The notes under the pieces: generated by a model
Database searches by the model: none
What the model saw: the letters and a program-made list of their open reading frames with translations, nothing else
What the model was told of the DNA's origin: nothing
Assembly: GCF_002797325.1 (NCBI RefSeq)
Contig: NZ_KZ454938.1
Location: 1,066,267 to 1,130,266, forward strand
Length of the DNA stretch: 64,000 nt
Direction: 5' to 3'
Origin: Bacillus sp. FJAT-45037
Lineage (GTDB): Bacteria > Bacillota > Bacilli > Bacillales > Bacillaceae_D
Part shown: piece after piece, positions 9,134 through 62,338 of the stretch
Numbering within the stretch: the stretch's first letter is position 1
Layout of the letters: every line of letters starts with the position of its first letter
Made by a program: the position numbers and the translations under genes

Positions 9134-9254
9134 TAAGAAAAGCGGAGGCGACTGATCTGGGATGAGGGAAAACTAGGGGAAGCGAAAAGAAGTCGCACTT
9201 TGACTTCGTTCGATTCACCGGTTTTACCCAAAGCCCAAGGAGCCGCAGCTAGAC

Positions 9255-9496
9255 AAGAAAAGCGGAGGTTGCCGGGTAGAGGCGTCATGCAAATGTTCTG
9301 GCAGATTAAAAGCGCTCTTTGCTTTTATATCTGGCAGGTTATTTGACCAAGAGCCTCTGGAAACCGCAGCTAGACAAGAAAAGCGGAGGTTGCCGGGTAG
9401 AGGCGTCATGCAAATGTTCTGGCAGATTAAAAGCGCTCTTTGCTTTTATATCTGGCAGGTTATTTGACCAAGAGCCTCTGGAAACCGCAGCTAGAC
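9255..9496 (+). repeat. two identical 121-bp tandem units
   Basis: 9255-9375 and 9376-9496 show no difference on reading. Each holds AAAAGC-N7-GCTTTT as an inner hairpin flanked by TCTGGCAG direct repeats. Copy B has only one such unit (24448-24567), so this is a recent local duplication. Confidence 0.92.
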
Positions 9497-9540
9497 AAGA
9501 AAAGCGGAAGGGCTCGTTTAGTTGCGTATAAAATGGAGTG

Positions 9541-9610
9541 CGGCGACCGAGATAAAGGAAACACAGAGAACGTAGTGATCTGATGTTGACTTATCGACCG
9601 AGGCGAACGG
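9541..9610 (+). repeat. 70-nt core identical to 24611-24680
   Basis: From CGGCGACCGAGATAAAGG to the final CGAACGG the two copies are the same base for base, while the flanking arms of the unit differ. CGACCGAG occurs twice inside it, and GATAA pairs with TTATC. Confidence 0.9.
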
Positions 9611-9684
9611 AATTTTACTAGCTACTGAGCCCTGTAGCTAGACAAGAAAAGCGGAGGGGATCGTTTTTCCATTTATTTCATGCG

Positions 9685-9781
9685 TTTGCGCGAAAACTTC
9701 CTTGTTTTGCGCGGAAATGTCGCCAATTCGCTCGGAAAAAGTATAACTTCGCGCGAAAACTACTACAATTCGCGTGAAACA
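9685..9781 (+). repeat. array of five palindromic sites with exact 21-bp period, copy A
   Basis: Sites start at 9685, 9706, 9727, 9748 and 9769: TTTGCGCGAAAAC, TTTGCGCGGAAAT, TTCGCTCGGAAAA, TTCGCGCGAAAAC, TTCGCGTGAAAC. The core TTCGCGCGAA is a perfect palindrome. The 8-bp spacers are unrelated. The period equals two helical turns, so all sites face the same side. Confidence 0.88.
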
Positions 9782-9863
9782 CTCGAAACCTAATCAGCTA
9801 TTAGCAAACAGCCAGTAGTTTTTCGCTTATAAAATAAAAAACAACCTAAAGGAGCTTTTATTC

Positions 9864-10691
9864 ATGGAAAATATGTTAGAAAAAATCAAACAATCAGCTA
9901 CATACTTAGAAGGGAAATTATCAACAAAACCTGAAATCGGTTTAATTTTAGGATCTGGATTAGGCGAGTTGGCAGATGAAATTGAAGATGCGGTAAAAAT
10001 CCCTTATACAGACATTCCAAACTTCCCTGTTTCTACAGTTGAAGGACATGCAGGTCAATTAGTGATTGGTAAGCTTAATGGGAAAGACGTTGTCGCGATG
10101 CAAGGTCGTTTTCATTATTATGAAGGGTATTCTATGCAAGATGTTACGTTCCCAGTACGTGTTATGAAACAAATTGGTGTTGAATTAATGGTTGTGACAA
10201 ATGCGTGTGGTGGGATGAATAAAAACTTTGCGCCCGGTGATTTAATGATCATTACAGACCAATTAAACATGACCGGTGATAACCCGTTAATCGGATCAAA
10301 TTTTGAAGAGCTTGGTCCACGCTTCCCAGATATGAGTAGTGCTTACACACCTGAATATGTTGACTTTGTTGAAAATACAGCAAAGAACTTAGATATTAAC
10401 GTTCAAAAGGGTGTATATGCCGGTGTAACTGGTCCAACATACATGAGTGGTGCTGAACTAATTATGCTTCGTAATGTAGGTGGAGACGTTGTTGGGATGT
10501 CTACCGTACCAGAAGTAATCGTAGCAAGTCATGCTAACATGAAGGTAATCGGTATCTCATGCATTACAGATATGGCGATTGGCGAAGACCTTAAAGGGAT
10601 TACGCATGAAGAAGTTGTTGAGGTCGCGAACCGTACGAAGCCGAAGTTTATTAAACTTGTGAAAGAAATCGTTTCAACAGTAAAGCTGTAA
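9864..10691 (+). CDS. purine nucleoside phosphorylase paralogue with altered base site
   Basis: 275 aa, clearly homologous to PunA at 8315, with LGSGLG, GHAGQL and [10 protein letters not shown] kept. The base-contact residues differ: the Glu of YET is Met194 (TYMSGAE) and the Asn of ISN is Asp236 (CITDMAIG). In human PNP these positions are Glu201 and Asn243. Methylthioadenosine phosphorylase, which binds 6-aminopurines, has Ser and Asp there. A shift toward adenosine-type substrates is inferred; it is not shown. AAAGGAGC precedes the ATG. The gene is separated from punA by 730 bp of repeats but lies only 21 nt from pdp. Confidence 0.85.
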   Translation: MENMLEKIKQSATYLEGKLSTKPEIGLILGSGLGELADEIEDAVKIPYTDIPNFPVSTVEGHAGQLVIGKLNGKDVVAMQGRFHYYEGYSMQDVTFPVRVMKQIGVELMVVTNACGGMNKNFAPGDLMIITDQLNMTGDNPLIGSNFEELGPRFPDMSSAYTPEYVDFVENTAKNLDINVQKGVYAGVTGPTYMSGAELIMLRNVGGDVVGMSTVPEVIVASHANMKVIGISCITDMAIGEDLKGITHEEVVEVANRTKPKFIKLVKEIVSTVKL

Positions 10692-10712
10692 AGCGAAGGA
10701 GATGTTTGACTT

Positions 10713-12014
10713 ATGCGTATGGTAGATGTGATTGAGAAGAAACGTGACGGAATTGAATTAATGAAAGAAGAAATTCAGTTTGTCATTGAAGGATATACAA
10801 ATGGAGAGATCCCTGAGTACCAAATGTCTGCACTTGCAATGGCGATCTTTTTCAAAGACATGACAACAGACGAGCGCGCCCATCTAACCATGTCAATGGT
10901 AGAGTCAGGTGATCAAATCGACCTGTCTGCTGTTGAAGGTATAAAAGTAGATAAGCATTCAACAGGTGGTGTTGGCGATAAAACAACGATCGCTCTTGCG
11001 CCTCTAGTCGCAGCACTTGGCATACCTGTAGCAAAAATGTCTGGTCGTGGACTCGGTCATACAGGTGGAACAATTGATAAACTTGAAGCGATTCCTGGTT
11101 TCAGCGTTGAAATTGAAACAGAGACGTTCATTGATCTTGTTAACAAGAATAAATTAGCAGTGATCGGTCAAACAGGAAACCTGACACCAGCTGATAAAAA
11201 ATTATATGGTTTGCGTGATGTAACAGCGACTGTTAATTCGATTCCTCTTATTGCAAGTTCAATAATGAGTAAGAAAATAGCTTCAGGAGCAGATGCGATT
11301 GTGCTTGATGTTAAGACAGGTTCTGGAGCTTTCATGAAAAAGTTAGAGGACTCTAAAGCACTTGCTCAAGCAATGGTAGAAATCGGAAATAACCTTGGTC
11401 GTGATACAATGGCGATTATTTCAGATATGAATCAACCGCTTGGTTTAGCTGTTGGAAACGCACTAGAAGTCAAAGAAGCAATCGATATGCTACGTGGTGA
11501 GGGTCCAGACGATCTACGCGAATTATGTTTAACATTAGGTAGCCACATGGTGTATTTAGCAAAGAAAGCAAGCTCAGTTGAAGAAGCACGTAAAATGTTA
11601 GAAGAAGTGATTGCATCAGGTAAAGCACTTGAAACGCTAAAAGTATTTATTGAGGCTCAAAATGGTGATTCTTCGATTGTAGACGAACCAGAGAAACTCC
11701 CAAAAGCTAAACACCTCATCGATGTAAAAGCAACGAAGTCTGGGACTGTTTCTGCGATCGTTGCAGATAAAATTGGAACAGCTGCGATGTTACTAGGTGC
11801 AGGTCGTGCAACAAAAGAATCAGAAATTGATCTTGCAGTTGGTCTGATCTTAAATAAGAAGATTGGCGATCACGTTGATGCAGGAGATTCGATCGTTACT
11901 CTTCATAGTAACCGTGAAGATGTACAAGATGTAATCGATATGGTGACGAATGCATATTCAATTACTGATGAAAATGTTGAAAAACCAACGTTAATTTATG
12001 ATGAAATTAAATAA
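10713..12014 (+). CDS. pdp: pyrimidine-nucleoside phosphorylase
   Basis: 433 aa. It phosphorolyses thymidine, deoxyuridine and uridine. The signature [16 protein letters not shown] lies at about 110-125, and the phosphate-site [10 protein letters not shown] at about 80-89, with KTGSGAFMK following. The length and the MRMVD start equal those of Bacillus Pdp; E. coli DeoA is related but thymidine-specific. GAAGGAGATG precedes the ATG by about 11 nt. With deoB and the two purine phosphorylases it forms a nucleoside catabolism group feeding ribose phosphates to DeoB. Confidence 0.95.
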
Positions 12015-12027
12015 GGATCATAATCAG

Positions 12028-12058
12028 CAATCTCTCTTTTTCTAGAGAGATTGTTTTT
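12028..12058 (+). terminator. terminator after pdp
   Basis: CAATCTCTCT pairs with AGAGAGATTG around a TTTTCT loop, followed by five T. Confidence 0.85.
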
Positions 12059-12135
12059 ATGTTTAACTTTTCTCAATAAGGAAATAGATAAGAGAGCAAC
12101 TGATTCGATCCAAACAAAAAGGAGTGTTTTCTAAC

Positions 12136-12558
12136 ATGTCAGACGTAATGTTTACAGCACAAGCAAAAGCAAAGAATGGTAGAAATGGACATGTGAAATC
12201 CGATAATGGTGTGATTGATCTTAAGCTTGTCATGCCTTCTGATGGGAAAGTTGGAACGGAAGGTACAAACCCAGAGCAACTATTCGGAGCAGGGTATGCA
12301 GCTTGTTTTGATGGTGCACTAAATTTATTGGCAAAAAATGAAAAGAAAGAAATTGATTCAGAAATTGAGTCGGAAGTGAGCCTAATTAAAGACCCTTCAG
12401 ATGGTGGCTTTAAAATTGGTGTGACACTCAATGTTCATATTAAAGGTGTATCACAAGCTATAGCAGAAGAATTAACGCATAAAGCACATGAATTCTGCCC
12501 TTATTCAAAAGCAACAAGAGGCAATATCGACGTAAAATTAAATGTAAAAGCAGAATAA
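12136..12558 (+). CDS. organic hydroperoxide reductase Ohr (OsmC/Ohr family)
   Basis: 140 aa. Ohr reduces organic hydroperoxides with two reactive cysteines; here they lie in AACFDGAL and FCPYSKATRGN, the usual Ohr motifs. The ATG at 12136 gives the family N-terminus, with AAGGAG upstream; the longer frame from a GTG at 12124 overlaps that site. Bracketed by terminators, so probably monocistronic. No OhrR-type regulator adjoins it. Bacillus has OhrA and OhrB (SigB-controlled); sequence alone does not say which. Confidence 0.9.
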   Translation: MSDVMFTAQAKAKNGRNGHVKSDNGVIDLKLVMPSDGKVGTEGTNPEQLFGAGYAACFDGALNLLAKNEKKEIDSEIESEVSLIKDPSDGGFKIGVTLNVHIKGVSQAIAEELTHKAHEFCPYSKATRGNIDVKLNVKAE

Positions 12559-12563
12559 GATGT

Positions 12564-12597
12564 AACCCACCTTCACTTAAGAAGGTGGGTTTTATTT
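12564..12597 (+). terminator. terminator after ohr
   Basis: AACCCACCTTC pairs perfectly with GAAGGTGGGTT, then TTTATTT. It may also serve the convergent gene ending at 12607. Confidence 0.85.
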
Positions 12598-12606
12598 AGC
12601 ATAAAA

Positions 12607-13500
12607 TTAATAAACGGATGTCAAGCGACCGTTAATACGGTAAGGCTGATCATTAAAAGTAGCATCGAACATGTCACCTTGAATTCTATATTCTCCTTCA
12701 TGTGAAAAGTAATAATTTTGTTCCTCGCCTATGACCAAATAATAATGGTTAAAGATGCCGTGCCGAGTAAGTCTATTTAAAGCGACATGGGCATCGTCTA
12801 ATGTTATTTGGACACGATATGGATCAGAACATACTTCGATATGTGTGGACTCCATACACTCAGATGGGGGGAGCTCTGCAACCATCGGCTCGAGCGGTTG
12901 GGCATCATAGACTTGTTCCATCGCCTCTACAATAAAATCATCTGTTAATCGATCTCGCTCCTGCTTCATCTTTAAGATACGTTCTTGTTCAGAAGAGTCA
13001 ACATAGTGTTGGGGAGCAAACAGACGAGTCGGGTGCGTTTGGAACCTAGAGAGCTCATGTTCTATCCAAGTGATCGAATACGTCGTTTGTGAGATGTCTC
13101 TAAATGCCGGACTCGCTAATTCTGGAACAAATTTATTGAAAGAATTGATAAGTTGAGCGTGTTTTTCTTCGAGGTCGACAATAGTATAAATTGGCGTTGG
13201 GAAAATCTCGTACTTGTAGTGATTAAAACCCACATATAGTACTAAAACAATAGCGAGCATCAGTAATTGCCTTCTAAATGTTTTGGCTGTGAGGCAAGTA
13301 GTTAACACGGCAATGAGGCCGCAAAGCATCGCGAATAAAAAAAGCTTATAGCTTATAAAGGCATGAAAGTAGAAAGCTAACGAAAATATTTGTGCCAACA
13401 AGAAAATGAATGCTCCTCTAACTCCCTCTTTTTTGTACGTTTTTACAATCGCAAATAACAAACCCGCAGTAAGTGCAATGATAATGATAAGTTGATCCAA
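12607..13500 (-). CDS. unrecognised membrane protein
   Basis: 297 aa, family not recognised. The first about 105 residues hold roughly four hydrophobic helices (about 3-20, 28-50, 52-68, 78-95). The rest is a soluble, charged domain of about 190 residues with two cysteines (ECMESTHIEVC) and many aromatic residues, probably exposed on one face of the membrane. The reverse reading has the normal codon use of its neighbours and a GAGGTG ribosome site before the ATG at 13500, so it is a real gene. It stands alone between ohr and the patatin gene. No function is proposed. Confidence 0.7.
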   Translation of the reverse strand: MDQLIIIIALTAGLLFAIVKTYKKEGVRGAFIFLLAQIFSLAFYFHAFISYKLFLFAMLCGLIAVLTTCLTAKTFRRQLLMLAIVLVLYVGFNHYKYEIFPTPIYTIVDLEEKHAQLINSFNKFVPELASPAFRDISQTTYSITWIEHELSRFQTHPTRLFAPQHYVDSSEQERILKMKQERDRLTDDFIVEAMEQVYDAQPLEPMVAELPPSECMESTHIEVCSDPYRVQITLDDAHVALNRLTRHGIFNHYYLVIGEEQNYYFSHEGEYRIQGDMFDATFNDQPYRINGRLTSVY

Positions 13501-13651
13501 GTTAACACCTCAAATCTATCCTTCGATGATAAAACTATACCATATTTACCATTTACTATGTGTTTTCTGAGTTTTTAAGATGACGAGATTTTCTTATCGT
13601 GCTCAATGGTGGTAAACTGAGATTATAGATAAAGTGTTAGGAGTGGTAGTC

Positions 13652-14503
13652 GTGAACGATGTCAGTCTTGTTTTAGAAGGCGGAGGAATGAGATCAGTGT
13701 ATACAGCAGGTGTTCTCGAGGTACTTATGAAGCGTGACATCGACATTCCTCATGTGATTGGAGTTTCCGCAGGGGCATGTAACGGGTCTTCATACGTCTC
13801 AAAACAAATCGATCGAAACCGTAAGGTGACGATTGATTATATTGATCGCCCTGAATATTTGAGCTTTAAAAATTTGATTAAAACGAAATCTGTTTTTGGG
13901 TGGGATTTTATTTTTGATAAGCTCCCTAATGAATTGGAGCCTTTTGATTACGAAACATTTGCGAACTCTGAAAAAACCTTTACAATTGTCACGACGGATT
14001 TAGAATCAGGAAAGCCTGTATATTTTAATGAGAAGTTACCTAAAGATGAGTTGCTAACGCTATTAAAAGCTTCAAGCAGTATTCCGTTACTTGCGCCTCC
14101 AGTAGCCTATAAAGATCAGATTTACTATGATGGCGGCATGGCTGATCCGATTCCGATTGAGCGCTCGGTTTCAGATGGTCATAAAAAGCATCTTGTTATA
14201 CTTACCCAAAATGAAGGCTATCAAAAGTCACCAATGCGTTTTAGTCGCCTAGCGAGGTGGTCGTTTAGAAATCATCCAGCATTCTTTCAAACAATGGCCA
14301 CACGTCATCATCAATACAATGATTCTTTAAAACGAGTTAAAGAGATGGAAGAACGTGGAGAAGCATTCGTTATCCGACCTAAATTACCGTTAAAGGTAGC
14401 GAGACTAGAAAAGAATAAAGGTCGTCTTGAAGCGCTCTATCAAGAAGGCGTAAAAGATATGGAGAATGAATTGACAAGTCTGAAAAATTGGTTTGATCAG
14501 TGA
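13652..14503 (+). CDS. patatin-like phospholipase family protein
   Basis: 283 aa. The oxyanion loop is EGGGMRSVYTAG near residue 9, the nucleophile Ser sits in GVSAG (about 42-46), and the catalytic Asp in YDGGMADPIP, giving the Ser-Asp dyad of patatin hydrolases. It resembles the YjjU-like group of bacterial patatins. The GTG at 13652 is chosen because TTAGGAGTGG (13637-13646) lies just ahead of it; an upstream GTG at 13634 precedes that site. No signal peptide, so a cytosolic esterase or lipase acting at membranes is likely. Substrate unknown. Confidence 0.86.
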   Translation: MNDVSLVLEGGGMRSVYTAGVLEVLMKRDIDIPHVIGVSAGACNGSSYVSKQIDRNRKVTIDYIDRPEYLSFKNLIKTKSVFGWDFIFDKLPNELEPFDYETFANSEKTFTIVTTDLESGKPVYFNEKLPKDELLTLLKASSSIPLLAPPVAYKDQIYYDGGMADPIPIERSVSDGHKKHLVILTQNEGYQKSPMRFSRLARWSFRNHPAFFQTMATRHHQYNDSLKRVKEMEERGEAFVIRPKLPLKVARLEKNKGRLEALYQEGVKDMENELTSLKNWFDQ

Positions 14504-14509
14504 GACGAA

Positions 14510-14538
14510 GGCTAGAGCTAAAGAGCTCTAGCCTTTTT
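14510..14538 (+). terminator. terminator after the patatin gene
   Basis: GGCTAGAGCT and AGCTCTAGCC pair perfectly over a four-base loop, followed by five T. Confidence 0.9.
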
Positions 14539-14653
14539 AGAATAAGTAAAAAGAATCTTTTATTTTAATGAAAATTATGGTATTCTAGCATAATGTTAAT
14601 AGGAACAAATGTTTTGTTAGCGAGAATTTTAATAAAAGGGAGTACCAAACATT

Positions 14654-15142
14654 ATGACTGGTAAAACACATCTTGTTGGAGGCGTGGCTCTATGTATGGC
14701 TGCTGATTCGTTATGGCTCGGCCAAAATGGAACGCCTCTTTATTACGTAGCAGGAATGGCAGGAGCGTTACTTCCTGATATTTGTCATATCCATTCGAAA
14801 ATCGGACGGAGATTACCGTTACTATCTAGAGTAATATCAAAGGTATTTGGACATCGAACGATTACGCATAGTTTATTGATCTTGGCTGTTACAGCGTTTA
14901 TTTTTTCTTTGTTTTTCCCTGATTATCTAATGGTTAGAAATGGACTGCTCATTGGAATGGTTAGTCATATCCTCTTAGATGCAATGACGGTTCGAGGAAT
15001 AAGGTTATTTTATCCACTTAATTGGCGCATAAGATTACCCTTTTTTATTCGAACTGGAGGAGGGATCGAGAGGGTCATTCTGTTAGCTTTATCTATATAC
15101 GTCTTTATTGCTTCCTTTGATATCTTTATGACATGGTTATAA
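14654..15142 (+). CDS. YdjM-like membrane-bound metal-dependent hydrolase (DUF457)
   Basis: 162 aa. Start MTGKTHLVGG, then LLPDICHIHSKIG, FGHRTITHSL and GMVSHILLDAMTVRGIRLFYPL: the His/Asp pattern of the YdjM/DUF457 family of integral membrane proteins that are predicted metal-dependent hydrolases. About four hydrophobic segments. GGGAGTACC precedes the ATG. Biochemical role not established for the family. Confidence 0.83.
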   Translation: MTGKTHLVGGVALCMAADSLWLGQNGTPLYYVAGMAGALLPDICHIHSKIGRRLPLLSRVISKVFGHRTITHSLLILAVTAFIFSLFFPDYLMVRNGLLIGMVSHILLDAMTVRGIRLFYPLNWRIRLPFFIRTGGGIERVILLALSIYVFIASFDIFMTWL

Positions 15143-15214
15143 AATGTGACATATATTTAAAGACGAATAATTCGTCTTTATGGTAAAGTGATAGTGGAGA
15201 TGGAGGTAGCAATT

Positions 15215-15640
15215 GTGAACAACCGAATTGAAAATCTATTAATCAGTGCTTGGCTCATATCGTTAGTTGCTACATTAGGATCGTTATACTTTTCTATTAT
15301 TAAGCAATTTGAACCTTGTACTCTCTGTTGGTATCAGCGGATTCTTATGTATCCACTCGTCATTCTATTACTTGTTGGAACGCTTAAGAAGGATGCAGGA
15401 GTGGCTTTATATTCGCTAATTTTTTCGGTTATTGGAATACTATTTTCAAGTTATCACTATGCAAATCAAAAATTAGCAGCGTTCCAAGAAGTTGCCCCTT
15501 CTTGTGGCCGTATCCCTTGTACCGGACAATATATTAATTGGTTTGGGTTTATGACAATTCCATTTCTTGCGTTGATAGCTTTTATAATGATTGCGTGTTT
15601 AAGTATTATGATTTTACGAATGAGCAAGGGGAGAAACTAG
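15215..15640 (+). CDS. bdbC: BdbC-like disulfide bond formation protein (DsbB family)
   Basis: 141 aa with four transmembrane helices. The quinone-linked pair Cys35/Cys38 lies in the EPCTLCWYQR motif and the second pair Cys97/Cys102 in the outer loop, as in DsbB/BdbC, which reoxidises an extracytoplasmic thiol oxidase. The GTG at 15215 follows GGAGGT, so the longer frame from 15188 is rejected. The next gene starts on the base after the stop, and that thioredoxin-like protein is the likely partner. Confidence 0.9.
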   Translation: MNNRIENLLISAWLISLVATLGSLYFSIIKQFEPCTLCWYQRILMYPLVILLLVGTLKKDAGVALYSLIFSVIGILFSSYHYANQKLAAFQEVAPSCGRIPCTGQYINWFGFMTIPFLALIAFIMIACLSIMILRMSKGRN

Positions 15641-16042
15641 ATGAAAAAAATCATTATTTTTGGTGGGATTGTTGTTACGTTATTTGTACTATTAGCCGTA
15701 GTGACCAACCTGCAAGAAGATCCTCACTATCAAAATACGATAGAGCCATCTGAATTAAACGAATCTCTTCAAAATGGTCAAGATGTAACGGTCTACTACT
15801 ACAGCCCAACTTGTCCTGCTTGCCAAGAAGCAACTCCACGTTTAAATGAAATAACAGAAAACCTTGGCGTGAATTTATTGCAATACAACATCAATGAACA
15901 TGGTGGTTGGGACACGTACAATGTAGAATTTACACCAACGATCATCCATTATGAAAATGGAGAAGAAGTAGCAAGAGTAGATAGTAGTTTAACAAATGAA
16001 GAATTCACAACATTTTTTGAAGAGAACGTGATAAATGAATGA
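15641..16042 (+). CDS. extracytoplasmic thioredoxin-like protein, partner of BdbC
   Basis: 133 aa. An N-terminal membrane anchor (about 4-22) precedes a thioredoxin fold with active site CPAC (Cys58, Cys61) and cis-Pro in EFTPTIIHY. It is directly abutted to bdbC (TAG then ATG), so translation is coupled. It differs from BdbD, which is longer (about 220 aa) with a DsbA-type insertion; this is the short thioredoxin-type partner. Role inferred: thiol oxidation of exported proteins. Confidence 0.82.
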   Translation: MKKIIIFGGIVVTLFVLLAVVTNLQEDPHYQNTIEPSELNESLQNGQDVTVYYYSPTCPACQEATPRLNEITENLGVNLLQYNINEHGGWDTYNVEFTPTIIHYENGEEVARVDSSLTNEEFTTFFEENVINE

Positions 16043-16051
16043 TGGTTGTAG

Positions 16052-16083
16052 AGGTAACTGTGATGGAGCAGTTACCTTTTTTG
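16052..16083 (+). terminator. terminator after the BdbC operon
   Basis: GGTAACTG pairs with CAGTTACC over an eight-base loop, followed by six T. Confidence 0.88.
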
Positions 16084-16189
16084 TTATGAATTGTGAGAAG
16101 TTTTTGACAGAATTAAAATACTGTAGAACGATCTATCACCTGAGGTTGTAGCAATGCCATTAAAACAAATTTTATAATTTCTTTCTACT

Positions 16190-16218
16190 AAATAGCCTTC
16201 CATCATGGGAGGCTATTT
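16190..16218 (+). terminator. orphan hairpin in the stretch 16084-16250
   Basis: AAATAGCCTTCC pairs with GGGAGGCTATTT around five bases; the T-run after it is weak (AATTTG). No gene ends here. A TTGACA lies at 16104-16109 without a good -10 at the right distance. The stretch between dacF and the upstream terminator otherwise holds only the SigF-like promoter below. Confidence 0.5.
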
Positions 16219-16250
16219 AATTTGTGTGCGTGTTTATCCTATTTCACTAT

Positions 16251-16278
16251 GTATAAAAAAGAAAACTTTGGTAAAAAT
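16251..16278 (+). promoter_or_regulatory. candidate SigF promoter of dacF-spoIIA
   Basis: GTATA (16251-16255), 14-bp spacer, GGTAAAAAT (16270-16278) fits the SigF pattern GYWTA and GGnnAnAnT, with the spacer one base short of the usual 15-16. dacF and spoIIA are transcribed from a SigF promoter in B. subtilis. Confidence 0.55.
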
Positions 16279-16362
16279 GGTGGATAGCAAACTTAGGGAC
16301 TTTATGTCTGTTGACTTGTTCCTAAGAAGACTAATGAAATTGATGAGATGGAGGTTGATGGG

Positions 16363-17523
16363 ATGAGGAAATTTTTATCTACACTATTAAGTTTAGTATT
16401 AGTAATTGGCGTAGTAGCACCATTAGGTCAAGCTGCAGAAAAGCAAGTGAATTTAGCAGAGAAAGCATCTTCTGCTATTGTGATTGAGCGTGATACAGGA
16501 GAAGTTTTATTTGAAAAAAATAGTCATGACGAACTTCCGCCTGCGAGTATGACAAAAATCATGACGATGCTTCTCATCATGGAAGCAATTGATGAAGGGT
16601 CACTCTCGTATGATGATAAAATTCGAACAAGTGAATACGCAGCATCGATGGGCGGTTCTCAAGTCTTTTTAGAACCAGGAGAAGAGATGACGGTCACAGA
16701 TATGTTAAAAGCAATTGCTGTAGCATCAGGAAACGATGCCTCCGTTGCAATGGCTGAACATTTAGGAGGCACTGAAGAAGAATTTGTCTCGATGATGAAT
16801 GAAAAAGCCAAAGAATTAGGATTGACGAATTCAAATTTTGTGAACTCGAATGGCTTGCCAGCTGAAAATCATTATACAACGGCTTATGATTTAGCGATGA
16901 TTTCAAAAGAGCTATTGAAATATGAAGATATTACAAAGTTTACAGGCATCTATGAAGATTATTTAAGACAAGATTCAGATAATAAATTTTGGTTAGTGAA
17001 CACCAACAAACTAGTGAGATTTTATCCTGGTGTGGATGGGTTAAAAACTGGATTCACTAGAGAGGCGATGTATTGCTTAACGGCGACAGCACAAAAAAAT
17101 GATATGCGTGTCATTACGGTTATAATGGGTGCGCCATCACCGAAGGATCGAAATGCACAAGTGACGGAAATGCTTGATTACTCGTTTAGTCAATTTATGA
17201 CACATAAGCTTTATGATCGTGATTATGTGATGGCTGATGTGAAAGTGAGCAAAGGTGATAAGAATACAATTCCTGTACAAACATCCGAATCCGTATCAAT
17301 CTTAACGAAAAAAGGGGTCAAGATTGATGATGTGACAGAGCGCATGGAGATTGATGAGCAGTTACGGGCACCTATTGCTAAAGGGGATCGAGTCGGGACC
17401 TTGTTCATTGAAAAAGAGGGCGAAGTATTAACAGAAACATCTCTTGTTGCAGGGGAAGATGTCTATGATGCTTCATGGTGGAAGTTATTTAAAAATGTTT
17501 TATCGAAATTTAGCGGCAAATAA
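16363..17523 (+). CDS. dacF: D-alanyl-D-alanine carboxypeptidase DacF (penicillin-binding protein)
   Basis: 386 aa, S11 peptidase. The signal peptide covers about 1-24 (cleaved near GQAAE). Active-site motifs: SMTK (Ser62-Lys65), SGN in VASGNDAS, and KTG in GLKTGFT. A C-terminal PBP5_C beta domain and an amphipathic anchor helix (SWWKLFKNVLSKF) follow. It trims pentapeptide stems in the forespore and sets cortex cross-linking. GGAGGT lies before ATG 16363; an earlier ATG at 16348 overlaps this site. Placed directly ahead of spoIIA as in B. subtilis. Confidence 0.94.
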   Translation: MRKFLSTLLSLVLVIGVVAPLGQAAEKQVNLAEKASSAIVIERDTGEVLFEKNSHDELPPASMTKIMTMLLIMEAIDEGSLSYDDKIRTSEYAASMGGSQVFLEPGEEMTVTDMLKAIAVASGNDASVAMAEHLGGTEEEFVSMMNEKAKELGLTNSNFVNSNGLPAENHYTTAYDLAMISKELLKYEDITKFTGIYEDYLRQDSDNKFWLVNTNKLVRFYPGVDGLKTGFTREAMYCLTATAQKNDMRVITVIMGAPSPKDRNAQVTEMLDYSFSQFMTHKLYDRDYVMADVKVSKGDKNTIPVQTSESVSILTKKGVKIDDVTERMEIDEQLRAPIAKGDRVGTLFIEKEGEVLTETSLVAGEDVYDASWWKLFKNVLSKFSGK

Positions 17524-17658
17524 GACGAATGTAGGCTAATTTTTACGAATTTGTACTAGTTTTGTCATGTGGCAGGGATGAGAGCACCTTAAAGCGAAAT
17601 CCACTCTTAGGAAAACAAACAGGTCTTCCTGTGTGTGAGCTATAAGGGAGTGATAATC

Positions 17659-18009
17659 ATGAGTTTAGTAATGGACTTAGAACGAAAAGGAAGTGTGTTG
17701 CTCGTTCGTCTTGAAGGAGAACTAGATCATCACACAGCAGAAAAATTGCGTAAGAAGGTTGAAGGTCACCTTGTCGATGCGAATGTATTACACATCGTGT
17801 TAAATCTTGAGCAACTTACTTTTATGGATAGCTCAGGTCTTGGTGTGATACTCGGACGTTACAAGCAGGTTAAAGCAAATGGTGGAGAGATGGTTGTATG
17901 TGCAATTTCCCCAGCTGTGAAGCGACTGTTTGAGATGTCTGGATTGTTCAAGATTATTCGTCTAGAAGAGAATGAACAATTTGCCTTGAAAACATTGGGG
18001 GTGGCCTAA
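17659..18009 (+). CDS. spoIIAA: anti-sigma F factor antagonist SpoIIAA
   Basis: 116 aa STAS-domain protein. The phosphorylated serine Ser58 is in FMDSSGLG, at the same residue number as in B. subtilis. In its unphosphorylated form it releases SigF from SpoIIAB, switching on the forespore programme. AAGGGAGTG precedes ATG 17659; a longer frame from 17635 is not family-like. First gene of a tight three-gene operon, with spoIIAB 3 nt downstream. A SigH promoter is expected just upstream, but I could not identify one with confidence. Confidence 0.97.
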
Positions 18010-18012
18010 AAC

Positions 18013-18453
18013 ATGCGTAATCAAATGGATTTAACCTTCTCGGCACTAAGTGATAATGAATCTTTTGCTCGTGTAACGGTAGGTGCATTTATCGCTCAAC
18101 TTGACCCAACAATGGACGAAATGACGGAGATCAAGACTGTTGTTTCTGAAGCTGTTACTAATTCAATTATCCATGGATATCACAATCAATCAGACGGTAT
18201 GGTGCATATTCACGTCACTATAGATGATGGGACTGTTGAATTGACTATTCGTGATGAAGGATTGGGCATGGAGGATATTGAAGAAGCAAGACAGCCTCTT
18301 TTTACGACAAAACCAGAATTAGAGCGCTCTGGTATGGGCTTTACGATAATGGAGAATTTTATGGATGAAATCAAGATCAGCTCAGAGCCAATGATTGGGA
18401 CGACCGTTTACTTGAAAAAGCATTTAACTAATAGCAAAGCAATTTGCAATTAA
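18013..18453 (+). CDS. spoIIAB: anti-sigma F factor and serine kinase SpoIIAB
   Basis: 146 aa GHKL-fold kinase. N-box [13 protein letters not shown] (about 45-57), G1 box DEGLGM and G2-like GMGFTIM bind ATP. It holds SigF inactive and phosphorylates SpoIIAA Ser58. The stop codon overlaps the first base-pairs of the sigF ribosome site (TAAGGAG), so translation of the two is probably coupled. Confidence 0.97.
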
Positions 18454-18465
18454 GGAGTTTTGCCT

Positions 18466-19236
18466 ATGGATGCCCAGGTAAAACAAGTGAAAAAGAAGAA
18501 GGAAGCGCACTTTTCGGATAAGGAAGTCAAAGTACTTATTGCTAGGAGTCAAGACGGAGACCAAGAAGCAAGGGACCTTATTGTAAATCGCAATACGAGG
18601 CTTGTTTGGTCAGTTGTGCAACGTTTCTTAAATCGAGGCTACGAAGCAGATGATCTGTTTCAAATTGGCTGTATTGGTCTGATCAAGTCGGTCGACAAGT
18701 TCGATCTTTCATATGATGTGAAGTTCTCAACTTATGCTGTACCTATGATTATTGGAGAGATTCAACGATTCTTACGTGATGACGGGACGGTGAAAGTTAG
18801 TCGTTCCATTAAAGAACTTGGAAACAAGATTCGGAAAATGAAAGACGAAATGACAAAGTCACTAGGTCGAGTGCCAACCATTAACGAGATTGCAGAACAA
18901 CTTGAGATCACTCCAGAAGAAGTGGTTTTTGCAGGAGAGGCAAGTCGTCAAATAACGTCGATTCATGAAACCGTGTATGAAAACGATGGTGACCCAATCA
19001 CACTCCTCGACCAAATTGCAGATCAATCCGAAACGAAATGGTTTGATAAAATTGCATTGAAAGAGGCGATTCGTGATCTTGACGAAAGAGAACGGTTAAT
19101 TGTTTATTTAAGGTATTACAAAGATCAAACCCAATCAGAAGTTGCCACTAGGCTAGGCATCTCGCAAGTTCAAGTATCGAGGCTCGAAAAGAAGATTCTT
19201 GAACAAATGAAAGAAGTCATGGGTGAGCAGACTTAA
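18466..19236 (+). CDS. sigF: RNA polymerase sigma factor SigF (SpoIIAC)
   Basis: 256 aa. Region 2 (DLFQIGCIGLIKSVDKFDLSYDVKFSTYAVPMI) and region 4 helix-turn-helix (TQSEVATRLGISQVQVSRLEKKIL) are clear. It is the first forespore-specific sigma factor. ATG 18466 has AAGGAG 8 nt upstream; the TTG at 18460 falls inside that spacing and is rejected. The target promoter type is visible upstream of dacF. Confidence 0.97.
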   Translation: MDAQVKQVKKKKEAHFSDKEVKVLIARSQDGDQEARDLIVNRNTRLVWSVVQRFLNRGYEADDLFQIGCIGLIKSVDKFDLSYDVKFSTYAVPMIIGEIQRFLRDDGTVKVSRSIKELGNKIRKMKDEMTKSLGRVPTINEIAEQLEITPEEVVFAGEASRQITSIHETVYENDGDPITLLDQIADQSETKWFDKIALKEAIRDLDERERLIVYLRYYKDQTQSEVATRLGISQVQVSRLEKKILEQMKEVMGEQT

Positions 19237-19268
19237 AGAGTAGAACAGAATAGGATGAACGGTAGGAG

Positions 19269-19296
19269 GAGAAGCTGTCATAGCTTCTCTTTTTTG
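19269..19296 (+). terminator. terminator after sigF
   Basis: GAGAAGCT pairs with AGCTTCTC over GTCAT, followed by six T. Confidence 0.88.
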
Positions 19297-19336
19297 CTTG
19301 TTTTAAAAAAGTGTTGGTTTTGTCCTTTTGTCTCAT

Positions 19337-19365
19337 GCATGTTTTTTGTTTCTTTCCTCATACTA
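19337..19365 (+). promoter_or_regulatory. candidate SigG promoter of spoVA
   Basis: GCATG (19337-19341), 17-bp spacer, CATACTA (19359-19365) fits the SigG pattern GHATR and CATnnTA. It lies 35 bp before spoVAA, and spoVA is a classic SigG operon. Confidence 0.72.
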
Positions 19366-19400
19366 ATTGATAACATTCATGACAAAAGGTGGTTGGAAAC

Positions 19401-20024
19401 GTGATTGGTGAAAACGTGTATATTCGCATGCGACAAAGAGTGAGTGCAGCACCCCATGATCAGTTAAAAGTTGGACAACTTGCTCAAGTCATTGCGAGTG
19501 AATCGATTGTTTCTGAAGTAACCTCCATGCCCGTTTATCAAATAAAAATAAAAGATCATAACCGTGTTGTCATAGATGTGATGGAGGTCATTCGAATCAT
19601 TCGTTTTCATTTTCCAGATGTGTCGTTTCAAACCATTGGGTCTGCTCAAACAGTTATCGATATTGAGGTTCAGAAAAAAAGTTTTAAGTGGATCTACATA
19701 ATACTCGTGTGGTTTCTACTATTTGTTGGTGCGGGTCTTGCGATTATGAATTTCCATGAAGATGTGAGTATGCGAGCGGTTCATCTCCGTATTTTCCAAT
19801 TGGTCACAGGAAACGAAGTCGCTAAGCCATTGATGCTTCAAATACCATATTCGATTGGCTTGGGTCTTGGGATGATCTTGTTTTTTAACCACTTTTTTAA
19901 GAAGCGGCTTAATGATGAGCCGAGTCCACTTGAAGTAGAGATGTTTAATTACCAACAAAACCTTGATCAATATGTGATCACGCATGAATTGAAGGAAAAT
20001 CAACGTAAAAAAAATGGTCATTGA
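19401..20024 (+). CDS. spoVAA: stage V sporulation protein AA
   Basis: 207 aa with a soluble N-terminal domain (about 1-100) and two C-terminal transmembrane helices (about 100-118 and 150-170). It is part of the SpoVA membrane complex that moves Ca-dipicolinate into the forespore and out at germination. GTG 19401 follows AAAAGGTGG; the GTG at 19389 overlaps that site. Its last 11 bp overlap spoVAB. Confidence 0.92.
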   Translation: MIGENVYIRMRQRVSAAPHDQLKVGQLAQVIASESIVSEVTSMPVYQIKIKDHNRVVIDVMEVIRIIRFHFPDVSFQTIGSAQTVIDIEVQKKSFKWIYIILVWFLLFVGAGLAIMNFHEDVSMRAVHLRIFQLVTGNEVAKPLMLQIPYSIGLGLGMILFFNHFFKKRLNDEPSPLEVEMFNYQQNLDQYVITHELKENQRKKNGH

Positions 20025-20427
20025 AGCCGTTAACATCATCTTTATCGGATTTGCTGGTGGAATTGCTGTAGGAAGTGGATTCGTCGCATTTTTAACCGTT
20101 CTTGGGATTATTCCTAGGCTTGCACAATTAACGAAATCAGAACGATCCATCAGGGGCTACGAAGCTGCGATTATTTTAGGGGCACAAGTTGGCACATGGG
20201 CGAGCTTTTATTCACTTTCTCTCCACACCTCTCCTTTTTGGTTGATTCCAATCGGACTAGCGTGTGGGGTGTTTGTAGGAATGTTGGCAGCTGCATTAAC
20301 GGAAGTGCTCAATGTTTTTCCGCTCTTAGCCAAACGAGTAGGAGTCACCGATAAAATTGTTTTATTGATGATGGCGATTGTATTCGGGAAGATTGTTGGT
20401 TCGATGATCCAGTGGCTTTACTTATAG
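20014..20427 (+). CDS. spoVAB: stage V sporulation protein AB
   Basis: 137 aa, four hydrophobic segments and no large soluble part, as for SpoVAB. The ATG lies inside the end of spoVAA (11-bp overlap), implying coupled translation within the spoVA operon. Role inferred from the complex: forespore inner membrane part of DPA transport. Confidence 0.93.
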   Translation: MVIEAVNIIFIGFAGGIAVGSGFVAFLTVLGIIPRLAQLTKSERSIRGYEAAIILGAQVGTWASFYSLSLHTSPFWLIPIGLACGVFVGMLAAALTEVLNVFPLLAKRVGVTDKIVLLMMAIVFGKIVGSMIQWLYL

Positions 20428-20439
20428 GAGGGGGTTTGG

Positions 20440-20895
20440 GTGTTAACGGATGAACAAAAGCGGTATCAGGCAAATATTGAATTGTATCATACAAGACCTC
20501 CTGTCATAAAAAACAGTTTGAAAGCCTTTGTTATTGGTGGAGGAATTTGTGCTCTTGGTCAGTGGATAAGCAATCTTTATATTACGTTTTTTCCTCTTAC
20601 TCAAAAAGAAGCCTTAAGTCCAACATTGGCAACGTTGATTTTAATTGCGGCTCTTCTCACTGGTCTGGGGGTTTATGATCGCATCGGCCAATTTGCAGGG
20701 GCGGGGTCACTTGTACCTGTAACCGGCTTTGCTAATGCGATGACTAGTGCAGCGCTCGAACATAAGAGTGAAGGCTTAGTGTTTGGAATTGGTGCTAACA
20801 TGTTTAAGCTGACGGGGGCAGTTATTGCCTTTGGAGTGTTATCCGCTTACGTGGTTGGATTAACAAGATTACTCGTGCAAATGCTCATACAGTAA
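20440..20895 (+). CDS. spoVAC: stage V sporulation protein AC
   Basis: 151 aa. Conserved run GLGVYDRIGQFAGAGSLVPVTGF, then NAMTSAALEHKSEGLVFGIGANMFKL, typical of SpoVAC, which behaves as a mechanosensitive channel for DPA release. Four membrane helices. GTG start after TAGGAGGGGG. A second copy lies at 47056 in the spoVA2 cluster. Confidence 0.95.
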   Translation: MLTDEQKRYQANIELYHTRPPVIKNSLKAFVIGGGICALGQWISNLYITFFPLTQKEALSPTLATLILIAALLTGLGVYDRIGQFAGAGSLVPVTGFANAMTSAALEHKSEGLVFGIGANMFKLTGAVIAFGVLSAYVVGLTRLLVQMLIQ

Positions 20896-20909
20896 AGGGG
20901 TTTGGCGCA

Positions 20910-21920
20910 ATGAAAGTAGGGAAGCAAACATGGTCCTTTAACAATGATGTGTTCATTCAATCAACTGGTACAGTGGTAGGTCCATTGGAAGGGAAAGGGC
21001 CACTTGGTTCATATTTTGATAAAGTGTTCGACAATTTGTATTGCGGTGCTGATAATTGGGAGCTAGCAGAAAGAGCCTTAATGGAAGAGGCGGTTCAAAT
21101 CAGTCTAGAGAAAGTGAACCGTAAACCGGCAGACATGGATGTTTTGCTAGCGGGAGACTTATTAAACCAAATCGTGACATCGAATTACACAGCCAGGCAG
21201 CTAGCGATCCCGTTTTTAGGTATGTTCTCAGCTTGTGCAACAGTAATGGAGGCAGTTGCTATTGCTTCTGTTCTCGTTAACAGCCAATACGTTGATCATG
21301 CATTGGTCGCTGTTAGTAGCCATCATTCTACAGCAGAACGTCAATTTCGTTATCCAACCGAATTCGGTGGGCAACGACCAGAAACATCAACCTATACCGT
21401 AACAGGTGCTGGTGCTGTGATTATTGGTCGAAAGGTGTCAAAGATAAAAGTAGAACTAGCTACTATTGGTCAGGTGGTAGATATGGGGATTGGAAATCCA
21501 ATGGATATGGGGTCAGCGATGGCTCCAGCCGCCGCCAAAACATTATTAACTCACTTAAAAGATACGAAACGCGATCCGACTTACTATGATTTGATTGTCA
21601 CTGGTGATTTATCACGTGTAGGAAGTTCTATTATGCGCAAGCTAGTAGAAGAAGAAGGTGTCAAATTAGGAACAAATTATGAAGATTGTGGCGTGATTTT
21701 ATATCACCAGGAACAACCTGTTTTCTCTGGTGGTAGTGGCGCAGGATGTCCTGCAGTCGTTACTTTTGGTTATTTGATGCGTGAGATGGAGCGTGGTGCC
21801 ATTAAGAAGTTATTAGTCATTGCTACAGGAGCTTTACTGAGTCCAATCATGATGCAGCAAAAAGAAACGATTCCCTCAATTGCACATGCAGTAGTATTTG
21901 AACGTTGGGGGGATGTCTAA
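20910..21920 (+). CDS. spoVAD: stage V sporulation protein AD (DPA-binding)
   Basis: 336 aa thiolase-fold soluble protein. SpoVAD binds dipicolinic acid on the inner membrane and feeds the SpoVA channel. Hallmarks: [14 protein letters not shown] near residue 20, [17 protein letters not shown] (thiolase-type Cys position), [12 protein letters not shown] and GATGALLSP-like end motif. The stop codon shares one base with the start of spoVAEb. Confidence 0.96.
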
Positions 21921-22270
21921 TGGAATACATCACGGCCTTTATCGTCGGTGGTATCATCTGCATCATTGGTCAGTTGTTCTTAGACATAGGTAAGCTCTCG
22001 CCAACTCATACATTGTGTGCACTTGTCGTATTAGGTGCTCTCTTAGACGGTTTTCATTTATACGACAGGCTAATTGATTTCGCAGGTGCGGGAGCAACAG
22101 TTCCGATTACAAGTTTCGGACACTCACTTGTTCATGGGGCGATGGCTGAGGGAGAAAGATATGGATTTTTAGGAGTCGGAATGGGTGTATTTGAGGTAAC
22201 TTCAGTGGGCATTTCATCGACGATTTTATTTAGCTTTTTAGTAGCTCTACTATTTAAGCCGAGGGGGTGA
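21920..22270 (+). CDS. spoVAEb: stage V sporulation protein AEb
   Basis: 116 aa, three to four membrane helices with the motif [23 protein letters not shown] shared by SpoVAC and SpoVAEb. The ATG overlaps the spoVAD TAA by one base (TAATG). The longer frame from 21905 would begin inside spoVAD and lacks a ribosome site. It is the likely channel partner of SpoVAC. Confidence 0.94.
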
Positions 22271-22276
22271 GTAGGT

Positions 22277-22864
22277 GTGGCAGATAAGCGTAAGGTGATT
22301 TTGATTACTGATGGAGATGAACATGCAAAAAGAGCGGTCGAATTGGTCGCAAAAGATATGGGGGGAAGGTGCATTAGCCAATCAGGAGGCAACCCTTCCC
22401 ATATTAGCGGTGAGGAACTTGTTCAAATGATTTTGCACGCACCTACAGAACCTGTACTAGTCATGTTTGATGATTGTGGGTACCATTACGAGGGACCGGG
22501 AGAACAAGCGATGAGAATTGTTGCTACTCATCCAGACATTAATGTATTAGGAGCGATTGCTGTCGCCTCTGCCACACATTCGTGCGAGTGGACGAAAGTC
22601 GATATTAGTCTTGATCGTTACGGAGAGTTAACAGAGTACGGAGTGGATAAGGACGGAGTAGCGGATATGGAAGTAGGAAGAATTAATGGCGATACCGTCT
22701 ATATTCTTGATCAACTAGATCTTCCGTTTATCGTTGGGATTGGCGATATCGGAAAGATGGCAGGGTTAGATACGGTGAAAAAAGGCTGCCCTGTCACAAA
22801 ACAAGCAGTAGAACTCATCTTAGAGAGGAGTGGTCAACGTGAGTCAAAAAAAGAAGGAACATGA
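22277..22864 (+). CDS. spoVAEa: stage V sporulation protein AEa
   Basis: 195 aa soluble protein with a Rossmann-like start ([22 protein letters not shown]) and the conserved [10 protein letters not shown] and [16 protein letters not shown] stretches of SpoVAEa. The GTG at 22277 follows GGGGGTGAGTAGG. It overlaps spoVAF by 26 bp. It is part of the operon in Bacillus but often absent elsewhere; its own role is unclear. Confidence 0.93.
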
Positions 22865-24326
22865 AGAGCATTTTACACGTGATTTCACAAAAAATGAGAC
22901 GCGTTTAGCAGAGCGACTTGGTTTAGGTAAATCTTTTGATGTTGGTGTTAGGAAGTTATTTATTTTAGATCGTCAAGTCAATATTTATTTTGTCAATGGA
23001 CTTGTAGATAACCAATATATTATTGAAATTTTAAAAGAGTTGATGGACCTTGACGTTCGTCACCGTAAAACAAATAGTGTCAAAGAAGCGATTAAAAATC
23101 ATTTAACCCATGTTCAAGTAGAAGAATCAAACTCAATTGATAATGTCATAACGCAGATGCTATCTGGATTAATCTTTATTCTTGTTGAAGGTGAAGAGGA
23201 AGCGTTTGTCATTGATGTGCGCATGTATCCGACGCGAGGACCAGAAGAACCAGATACGGAGCGTGTTGTACGCGGGGCGCGTGACGGATACACAGAGAAC
23301 ATTATTATTAATACGGCCTTAACGAGACGACGCATTCGTGATGAACGGTTACGTAATGAAATTTTGCAAGTAGGTGTTCGTTCGAAAACAGATATCAGTG
23401 TGACTTATATTGAAGGGATTGCTGACCCGAAACTTGTTGACATTATTATCAAAGAACTTGAAGCCATTGAAATTGATGGGATTGCAATGACAGACAAAAT
23501 CGTCGAAGAGTATATTGTAAAACAAGGGTTGAATCCATTTCCGCTTGTTCGTTACACTGAACGGCCAGACGTTGTGGCTACACATTTACTCGAAGGGCAT
23601 ATTGCCATCATTGTCGATACATCTCCGAGTGTCATTATTACACCAACAACTTTGTTTCATCATGTTCAACACGCGGAAGAATATCGTCAGTCGCCTGCTG
23701 TCGGAACCTTTCTAAGGTGGACTCGATTTGTAGGGATTTTCTTTTCATTGTTTATTTTACCATTTTGGCTCTTGCTAGTTGTTCAGCCAAGCTTATTACC
23801 TGCAGCGCTTGATTTCATTGGGCCGGAAGAAACGAATAATATACCGATCGTTCTTCAAATTCTCTTTGCCGAACTTGGTATTGAATTGCTACGAATGGCA
23901 GCGATTCATACACCATCTCCTCTTGCTACCGCATTAGGCTTAGTAGCAGCACTTTTAATAGGAGAGATTGCTATAGAGGTTGGATACTTTACTCCAGAAG
24001 TTATTTTGTATGTTGCCATAGGGGCAATTGGAATGTTTGCAACCCCGAGTTACGAGTTGGGGATTGCTCTTCGGATCGCTAGAGTGTTTCTTATAATAGC
24101 AGTAGCCATCTTCCATTTACAAGGATTTGTAATTGGTACAACATTGTTCTTGCTGTTCCTAGTAATGATGAAAACATTCAATAAACCATATATGTGGCCA
24201 TTCATCCCATTTGACCCACCAGCCATTTGGCAAATCTTAATCCGTTCAACTGTTCCATCCGTCCGCTGGCGCCCAAGTATCGTCAACCCACAAGACCCCG
24301 TCAAACAAAAACCAACCGGGAGGTAA
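22839..24326 (+). CDS. spoVAF: stage V sporulation protein AF (GerA family)
   Basis: 495 aa, homologous to the A subunits of nutrient germinant receptors. A long soluble N-terminal domain (about 1-285) precedes five to six membrane helices (about 290-460). The GTG at 22839 follows AGAGGAGTGG. The 3' end is markedly C-rich over G: 33 C against 16 G in the last 96 nt, unlike the body of the gene. A composite repeat begins directly after the TAA. Spore inner-membrane location is inferred from the family. Confidence 0.94.
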
Positions 24327-24610
24327 TAAGAAAAGCGGAGGCGACTTTTTTGGAATGAGGGAAAACTAGGGGGAGCCAAAAGAAGTCGCTTTTTGATTTC
24401 GTTGGATTCCCCGGTTTTCCCCGAATTCCAAGGAGCCGCAGCTAGACAGAAAAGCGGAGGTTGCCGGTTAGAGGCGTGATGCAAATGTTCTGGCAGATAA
24501 AAAGCGCTTTTTGCTTTTATATCTGGCAGGTTATTTGACCACGAGCCACTGGCAACCGCAGCTAGACAGAAAAGCGGAGGAGTCCGTTAAGTGACGTATG
24601 AAATGGAGGG

Positions 24611-24680
24611 CGGCGACCGAGATAAAGGAAACACAGAGAACGTAGTGATCTGATGTTGACTTATCGACCGAGGCGAACGG
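24611..24680 (+). repeat. 70-nt core identical to 9541-9610
   Basis: Base-for-base the same as the core in copy A, in the middle of a type 3 unit whose arms have diverged. Confidence 0.9.
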
Positions 24681-24772
24681 CATTTCACTAGGCGCTGGAC
24701 TCATGAGCTAGACAGAAAAGTGGAGGCGACTGTTCTGGGGTGAGGAAGGATTTTTTCCATATTTTTGATGCA

Positions 24773-24869
24773 TTTGCGCGGAAACTAATTTAATTTGCGC
24801 GGAAATGATACGATTTCGCTCGCATTAATCAAAATTTTGCGCGAAAACGGATAAGATTCGCTCGAAACT
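24773..24869 (+). repeat. array of five palindromic sites with exact 21-bp period, copy B
   Basis: Sites start at 24773, 24794, 24815, 24836 and 24857: TTTGCGCGGAAAC, TTTGCGCGGAAAT, TTCGCTCGCATTA, TTTGCGCGAAAAC, TTCGCTCGAAAC. Spacing and site number are the same as in copy A, while spacers differ. Both arrays are preceded by a TTTTTCCAT leader. Confidence 0.88.
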
Positions 24870-24906
24870 TCCTCTCTAAAATAATCTCACTTCTATCGTT
24901 TAAGGG

Positions 24907-24959: not shown

Positions 24960-25199
24960 ATGAAAGTGGGGTAGAGGCGCAAAACGAATGAGTAGATTTG
25001 GGGAGCTTGTGGCAAGCATAGAACCAGATGGAAAGGTCAATTTGCCGAAGTACTTATGGATTGCCGATAACATAAGTGCTGGGTCGTTCTTAAACAAAGA
25101 ACGAACTGTCACTACTTTTGTAGTGGAGGACTATTCTAAAAATGAGGTTACTCTTTTGCATTTACAAGCAGCTAGTGTAACAACATTAGCTGCTTTTTT
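24960..25199 (+). promoter_or_regulatory. lysine riboswitch (L box) with terminator
   Basis: The aptamer at about 24960-25138 shows the L-box landmarks in order: GTAGAGGCGC, then GAGTAG, GAAAGG, TGCCGAAG, GCTGGGTC, GTCAC and GTGGAGG closing to CTATTC. An expression platform follows: AGCAGCTA (25167-25174) pairs with TAGCTGCT (25187-25194), ending in six T by 25199. It sits between the promoter and lysA, so lysine should switch off lysA transcription. A 91-codon open frame across it is not a gene. Confidence 0.9.
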
Positions 25200-35214: not shown

Positions 35215-35241
35215 GTCGGTAGTTGTAAAAAAATGAATAAT

Positions 35242-62249: not shown

Positions 62250-62338
62250 CGGACTTTTTCTGATGAGAAAAAATAAGTACTGTCACATCCTGATTATTCA
62301 TGTATAATAAAGGTACTTATTACAATCTCATATAGCGT

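Follow-up and report, generated by a model that had tools for sequence, protein, structure and literature searches.

A dispersed cassette of a leader and five 21-bp units in Bacillus sp. FJAT-45037, a putative phased docking platform whose core differs between sister species

The genome of Bacillus sp. FJAT-45037, an alkaline-loving relative of Bacillus, carries many copies of a cassette in which a 21-nt leader is followed by five direct copies of a short core, repeated at exactly 21 bp. Two of these arrays lie in the window analyzed here, i.e., the whole 64,000-nucleotide stretch from position 1,066,267 to 1,130,266 of contig NZ_KZ454938.1 (assembly GCF_002797325.1). The copies of this genome are intergenic, and at orthologous places in related species the core changes. 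We contend, with moderate confidence, that the cassette serves a multimeric DNA-binding protein as a phased docking platform, probably with an architectural role. The strongest facts are the fixed geometry, the constraint that orthologous sister-type arrays show on core and spacing, and the difference in core between sister species.

Both window arrays (Table 1) are built alike, with a leader close to TTTTTCCATTTTCTTGCTGCA, which is also the leader consensus across the copies of this genome, and then five direct TTYGCGCGRAAA copies at exactly 21 bp. A preliminary description of this DNA, which made no mention of the leader, had reported two sets of five palindromic TTYGCGCGAA sites separated by unrelated spacers. 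All ten sites are present where it placed them, but that motif is exact on the + strand at only three of them (9685, 9748 and 24836), with one mismatch at five others and more than one at 9727 and 24815 (TTCGCTCG). The term palindrome holds in part: 71% of the pairs are complementary at the best centre (110 units), but the unit consensus, TTYGCGCGRAAAC, is direction-specific and every unit has the same orientation. Over the same 110 units, the mean information per position is 1.42 bits at positions 1-12 and 0.15 bits at positions 13-21. The spacers do differ between the units of one array, whereas spacers of the same rank are partly alike in arrays 1 and 2, so the two arrays are copies of one cassette. 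In an alignment of 22 copies (A2), chosen partly by their leader since this was included in the selection score, the distance from the leader to unit 1 is constant, with zero indels.

The exact interval was recovered with a motif-agnostic score based on five rows at period 21, which makes two window calls at ≥60, precisely at the two array places (scores of 90 and 86); 200 first-order Markov simulations reached 62 at most. No window call at ≥66 was obtained at periods 17-20 or 22-25. Period 21 also dominates beyond the window: 400 kb of this genome gave 22 calls, part of which resemble coding repeats, vs. 0-3 at each of nine other periods. Likewise, 26 calls vs. 0-3 were obtained in 400 kb of G001, one of three Alkalihalophilus congeners used for comparison (G001, G002 and G003, the last being A. 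pseudofirmus OF4), and 35 stretches of G001 gave no call at four control periods.

Copies across the genome were collected by a DNA search with array 2 as the query (68 matches) and by a sequence model (R1) derived from 22 copies (at least 86 matches on both strands), each at E up to 1. With the better strand kept, and with reverse-strand echoes and one 35-bp fragment excluded, the 86 model matches read as 42 arrays, a lower bound because 150 of 982 candidates were scored. At a core match threshold of ≥7/11, exactly five units are found in 32 of the 42; one more has five plus two outlying weak matches, four have four units, four have three and one has two. Five in-register units occur in 33 arrays, and four or more in 37. 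Neighbouring core matches are separated by 21 bp in 155 cases and by 20 bp in two, while other spacings (2, 17, 24, 29, 35 and longer) are mostly single and come from damaged arrays or stray matches. The earlier suggestion that the spacing is selected is supported by the genome-wide dominance of 21 bp, by the empty or nearly empty other periods in the tested stretches and by the few indels in orthologous arrays of sister types (see below).

No array overlaps a predicted gene. The gene caller was a simple codon-score script that misses some genes, such as that of a NERD-domain protein (L092:7097-8095) lying between two inverted arrays whose leaders point outward. Open frames of at least 100 aa overlap seven arrays, all with negative codon scores, and coding repeats (21 bp being seven codons) were rejected on these grounds. 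One array is split by a Transposase_mut gene (L091:11008-12198; G000:C1:2771008-2772198), presumably of the IS256 family, with model positions 33-39 on both sides of it. In a Pfam scan of the neighbours, which covered 69 of 76 proteins together and most of the other seven separately, 108 families were matched; among the 25 listed, only four recur, i.e., Transposase_mut (three of the 69, in addition to the gene that splits an array), MULE (three), PNP_UDP_1 (two) and SEC-C (two). Because the neighbouring genes are unrelated, operator arrays of a regulon, one of the roles first proposed, are unlikely, and so are iterons, given at least 42 copies scattered over one chromosome. A phage or plasmid origin was also rejected, since blastn of window positions 24440-24880 (array 2 plus several AAGAAAAGCGGAGG modules, described below) returned no match in the phage and plasmid collections. 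Matches to the leader pattern comprised four stretches from viral contigs and 18 from genome contigs, with five Alkalihalophilus ones among them.

The flanking genes are convergent at 13 arrays, co-directional at 22 and divergent at six, one array having no gene call on one side. The 13 convergent cases among 41 classifiable copies, compared with only six divergent ones, are what might be expected if an RNA element or a read-through terminator had been copied to the 3' side of genes, and by eye several arrays adjoin terminator-like hairpins. We regard this explanation as very improbable and did not retain it: folding gave z below -2 in three of eight cases, but between -0.40 and +0.71 in the other five (both strands), Rfam has no match at the arrays, and no pairing plan common to the cores of different types was seen. 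Array strand varies with replichore (right arm, 5 + and 13 -; left arm, 18 + and 6 -; Fisher p 0.004), a value that is optimistic because the copies are related. The same test gave p 0.02 to 0.08 in OF4, depending on where the terminus is placed, and p 0.17 in G026, a genome from another family.

R1 has matches at E 0.01 in at least 18 of 40 genomes including its own, i.e., in at least 17 of 39 relatives. Many of these loci are, by eye, arrays of other cores with a similar period, and such cores are under-counted because R1 was built on the core of this genome and only part of the candidates were scored; the match in one relative (L076) appears coding. Eight tested loci of G026 score at period 21 and not at 19, 20, 22 or 23. 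Arrays with very different cores were also noticed in G026, at L299 near G026:C1:4209276 (22 bp) and at L298 near 3803418 (21 bp).

Four other cores were distinguished in G001 and G003, named T1 (ATTGCGYCGGTT), T2 (TTTGTTCGAAWTA), T3 (TTTGCTARAATAA) and T4 (TTCGTTTATAAAT), with T0 denoting the core of the present genome. A T0-like leader is found in most arrays of type T2 and in some of types T3 and T4; T1 arrays are without it and often have a sixth unit at 19-20 bp. In the stretches sampled, G001 and G003 showed no T0 and this genome no T1-T4, and a T1 model (E 0.001) found at least 98 matches in G003 and 0 here. Given that sister species have differently spelled sites in a similar layout, spelling seems less important than layout.

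Comparison of orthologous places brings out both the change of core and the constraint. In one gap, the flanks and the leader (TTCCATATATTTGCTGCG) are kept, and the core is T2 in G001, T4 in G002 and T3 in G003; by reading, the steps there are 21 bp throughout in T2, include one of 20 bp in T3 and are mostly 20 bp in T4. Another gap holds T2 with similar spacers in all three genomes. When 28 G001 arrays from a 280-kb stretch were compared with G003, 13 rows were called as the same type, representing 11 distinct G003 arrays; three were of the same type below the threshold, two were of a different type, three had no array called (one of these, 3674064, is doubtful, as a T1 model match was later found there) and seven were unplaced. 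The set used to assess constraint comprised 12 orthologous pairs (nine T1 and three T2), made up of the 11 distinct same-type pairs and one extra T1 pair (3691812 / 3462633), which was matched by likeness and had not been placed on both sides. Differences amounted to 60/537 in cores, 70/396 in spacers and 228/1044 in flanks for T1, and to 24/195, 24/120 and 57/358, respectively, for T2. Cores thus differ less than spacers when the types are pooled (84/732 vs. 94/516; Fisher p about 0.001) and in T1 alone (p 0.005), while T2 flanks (0.159) are not faster than T2 spacers (0.200). Gap columns number 13/1,261 in arrays vs. 91/1,493 in flanks; those in arrays fall in one T1 (12) and one T2 (one) and are absent from the other ten, and those in flanks divide into 81 for T1 and ten for T2. 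Slower cores and rare indels in these orthologous T1 and T2 arrays are signs of constraint.

A protein-binding array, as was proposed from the outset, is the most natural reading of such a geometry, although it stays putative, with neither RacA nor Noc supported as its binder. The noncoding cassette presents, after its leader, five direct GC-centred and near-palindromic sites of 12-13 bp. We propose that, with the sites two helical turns apart, a sequence-specific protein, or several dimers, could align cooperatively on one face of the helix over about 105 bp. The cassette would spread as a unit through intergenic DNA; its spacers would drift, selection would hold its core and phase, and between sister species the core that is recognised would be re-spelled. 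Since the neighbouring genes are unrelated, the likely job would be architectural (nucleoid organisation or chromosome anchoring) and not the control of a regulon.

Several observations weigh against the docking platform. No binding protein was found. The constraint test rests on the sister types T1 and T2 and not on T0, the type in the window; its pairs were selected as recognisable in both genomes, which favours conserved cores, and the difference between cores and spacers has p 0.076 in T2. Owing to the 20-bp steps of T3 and T4 at orthologous gaps, phase is inexact in some types. In addition, the stretch of this genome that is dense in arrays, to the left of the replication origin (oriC), is mostly rearranged relative to G001. 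Five of the 19 copies located there have adjacent G001 orthologues, and only one of the five corresponding gaps has an array (T1). Long stretches lack copies altogether, and copies are concentrated where the DNA is rearranged; a tolerated repeat would be distributed in this way.

It is possible that the arrays are a selfish or neutral dispersed repeat, similar to repetitive extragenic palindromic (REP) sequences or miniature inverted-repeat transposable elements (MITEs) and containing an internal satellite. Copying and gene conversion in intergenic DNA would then explain its dispersal, and five units at 21 bp would be the founder form. The likeness of same-rank spacers among copies points to descent from one cassette, and presence is lineage-specific at four of the five comparable gaps and at lysA, upstream of which no array was seen by eye in 900 bp of 11 related genomes. 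Half of the copies (21/42) end other repeat trains, and local near-duplicates and rearranged surroundings are consistent with the same explanation. REP/MITE-type repeats occur in tens of intergenic copies, in mosaic with other repeats. The cassette shares these traits, but differs in its phased multi-site interior with signs of constraint and in that no transposase partner was seen. The recurrence of the 20-21-bp layout with other cores in congeners and other families, together with the constrained core and spacing of the orthologous T1 and T2 arrays, also argues against a selfish repeat, and the few empty-site comparisons made, at large divergence, gave no clear cassette boundary and zero flanking target duplications. 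The docking platform best accounts for the geometry and the constraint, and a tolerated dispersed repeat for the patchy, lineage-specific placement; both can hold.

The chromosomal distribution bears on a further explanation, namely that the arrays are centromere-like and anchor the chromosome at the cell pole during sporulation, as the ram sites of RacA do. In this genome dnaA maps to about 3.002 Mb on contig C1, at the GC-skew sign change, and 19 of the 42 arrays are located to the left of oriC at a distance of about 115-265 kb. In G001, whose oriC was placed at the contig end on the basis of soj, spo0J and noc, which are located there, 31 typed arrays fall in 3.38-4.08 Mb (about 700 kb), all about 180-600 kb left of oriC. 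A ram site is a 14-bp inverted repeat. According to the available portions of the literature, ram sites are GC-rich and bound by RacA as a symmetric dimer (PMC5859096), and in B. subtilis they lie mainly within a 250-kbp region left of oriC and also elsewhere (PMC4949633; PMC6593407). The cassette sites resemble them in being GC-rich and in lying in large part left of oriC with others elsewhere, but ram sites are not described in those portions as 21-bp phased sets of five. RacA is encoded here (L240:1489-2040; NF009647, 8.4e-78; PDB 5i41, 1.1e-12) and, given the location of its B. subtilis sites, was worth testing. We nevertheless consider its involvement quite unlikely. The DNA-binding part of RacA does not vary with array type, being nearly identical here and in OF4, although the few residues that differ could still matter. 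No RacA was found at E 1e-5 in G026 or G030, which have at least 72 and 13 R1 matches, respectively.

The remaining 23 of the 42 copies lie elsewhere in the chromosome, and the impression from 20 sampled OF4 stretches that arrays form a belt left of oriC and are nearly absent from the other regions was overturned by the whole-genome search with the T1 model. This search gave at least 98 matches, or 82 merged arrays (150 of 760 candidates scored), in several clusters; 26 of the 82 are at 1.6-2.2 Mb near the terminus, and 2.10-3.10 Mb has none among the scored matches. For a nucleoid or partition site the evidence points both ways: the 19 copies left of oriC do resemble RacA sites in location, but the rearrangement of the dense stretch and the terminus cluster in OF4 make a centromere role only a lead, and neither RacA nor Noc is supported.

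Noc, with an altered recognition sequence, would be the other candidate. The Noc-binding site (NBS) is ATTTCCCGGGAAAT-like, and its plan of TTT, six GC-rich bases and AAA is common to the present sites, with the T0 core differing in the middle. Among the matches listed for G026, none falls in 1.36-2.78 Mb, the stretch that holds the terminus, as would suit Noc. A part for this protein has, in our estimate, only a very slight chance of being correct. As the alignments were read, Q173, K179 and R201 of NBS binders (PMC7383237, available part) recur in Noc of the present genome and of OF4, G001 and G026, which leaves a species-specific motif unexplained by Noc; the three Alkalihalophilus (this genome, OF4 and G001) have H at position 184. 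Sites within one mismatch of the NBS are few, at 2-5 per genome in four genomes. Like NBS and the parS sites of ParB, which serve to organise the chromosome, the cassette sites are short and scattered; specificity is conserved within each of these families as far as that source describes (PMC7383237), whereas cassette cores change between sister species.

Upstream of both window arrays are trains of other dispersed modules (Table 1), those before array 1 beginning with AAGAAAAGCGGAGG or a near variant and including an exact 121-bp duplication (9243-9363 / 9364-9484). The AAGAAAAGCGGAGG units are a separate, mosaic family of dispersed repeats in which at least three module bodies can be told apart by eye; Rfam at its gathering score has no match at the modules of the two trains. 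The expectation that arrays always follow these units failed genome-wide, as only the 21 of 42 mentioned above have them within 200 bp upstream, and none of the 14 copies at 2.736-2.804 Mb does. A lysine riboswitch (24964-25141) upstream of lysA starts 87 bp past array 2; flavin mononucleotide (FMN; 35241-35423) and cobalamin (62328-62515) riboswitches are also found in the window.

Table 1. Arrays, leaders and companion repeat trains in the window (positions counted from its first nucleotide)
Feature	Position	Strand	Details
Leader of array 1	9664..9684	+	TTTTTCCATTTATTTCATGCG
Array 1, five 21-bp units	9685..9789	+	starts 9685, 9706, 9727, 9748, 9769
Leader of array 2	24752..24772	+	TTTTTCCATATTTTTGATGCA
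Array 2, five 21-bp units	24773..24877	+	starts 24773, 24794, 24815, 24836, 24857
Repeat train preceding array 1 (other dispersed modules)	9135..9660	+	starts 9135, 9255, 9376, 9497, 9644
Repeat train preceding array 2 (same modules)	24328..24740	+	AGAAAAGCGGAGG, ≤1 mismatch, at 24329, 24448, 24568, 24714

The cassette extends a known class, the 20-21-nt noncoding tandem repeats of Bacillus, which were reported as unexplained and for which protein binding in the nucleoid or a small RNA was proposed (Subirana and Messeguer, 2021; PMC8161180, cited from its available part). As in that class, the length is constant at two helical turns (20-21 nt), at least four repeats are present (37/42), the copies are mostly noncoding (42/42 outside predicted genes here), the short core is species-specific (T0 here, T1 in G003) and several families coexist per genome. 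In contrast to the repeats described there, the cassettes have mostly five units preceded by a leader, their spacers have diverged until the units share hardly more than the core, and at one orthologous place leader and flanks are retained around different cores. The words pseudofirmus, marmarensis, intergenic, palindrom and terminator are absent from the main text of that paper, and among open-licence full texts no literature on a five-unit cassette was found.

These Bacillus repeats were called enigmatic, as their length is conserved and their sequence is not. The present case provides testable material in the form of a defined five-unit cassette with its leader, signs of constraint and an orthologous place with three cores, and it offers defined probes for finding the binding protein. 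It can be speculated, although we hold this to be doubtful, that the cassettes belong to a chromosome-organising system of Bacillaceae with a fixed leader-plus-five geometry and a fast-changing core re-spelled in place, served by a putative and so far unrecognised protein family. If true, this would be a bacterial counterpart of fast-evolving centromere sequence.

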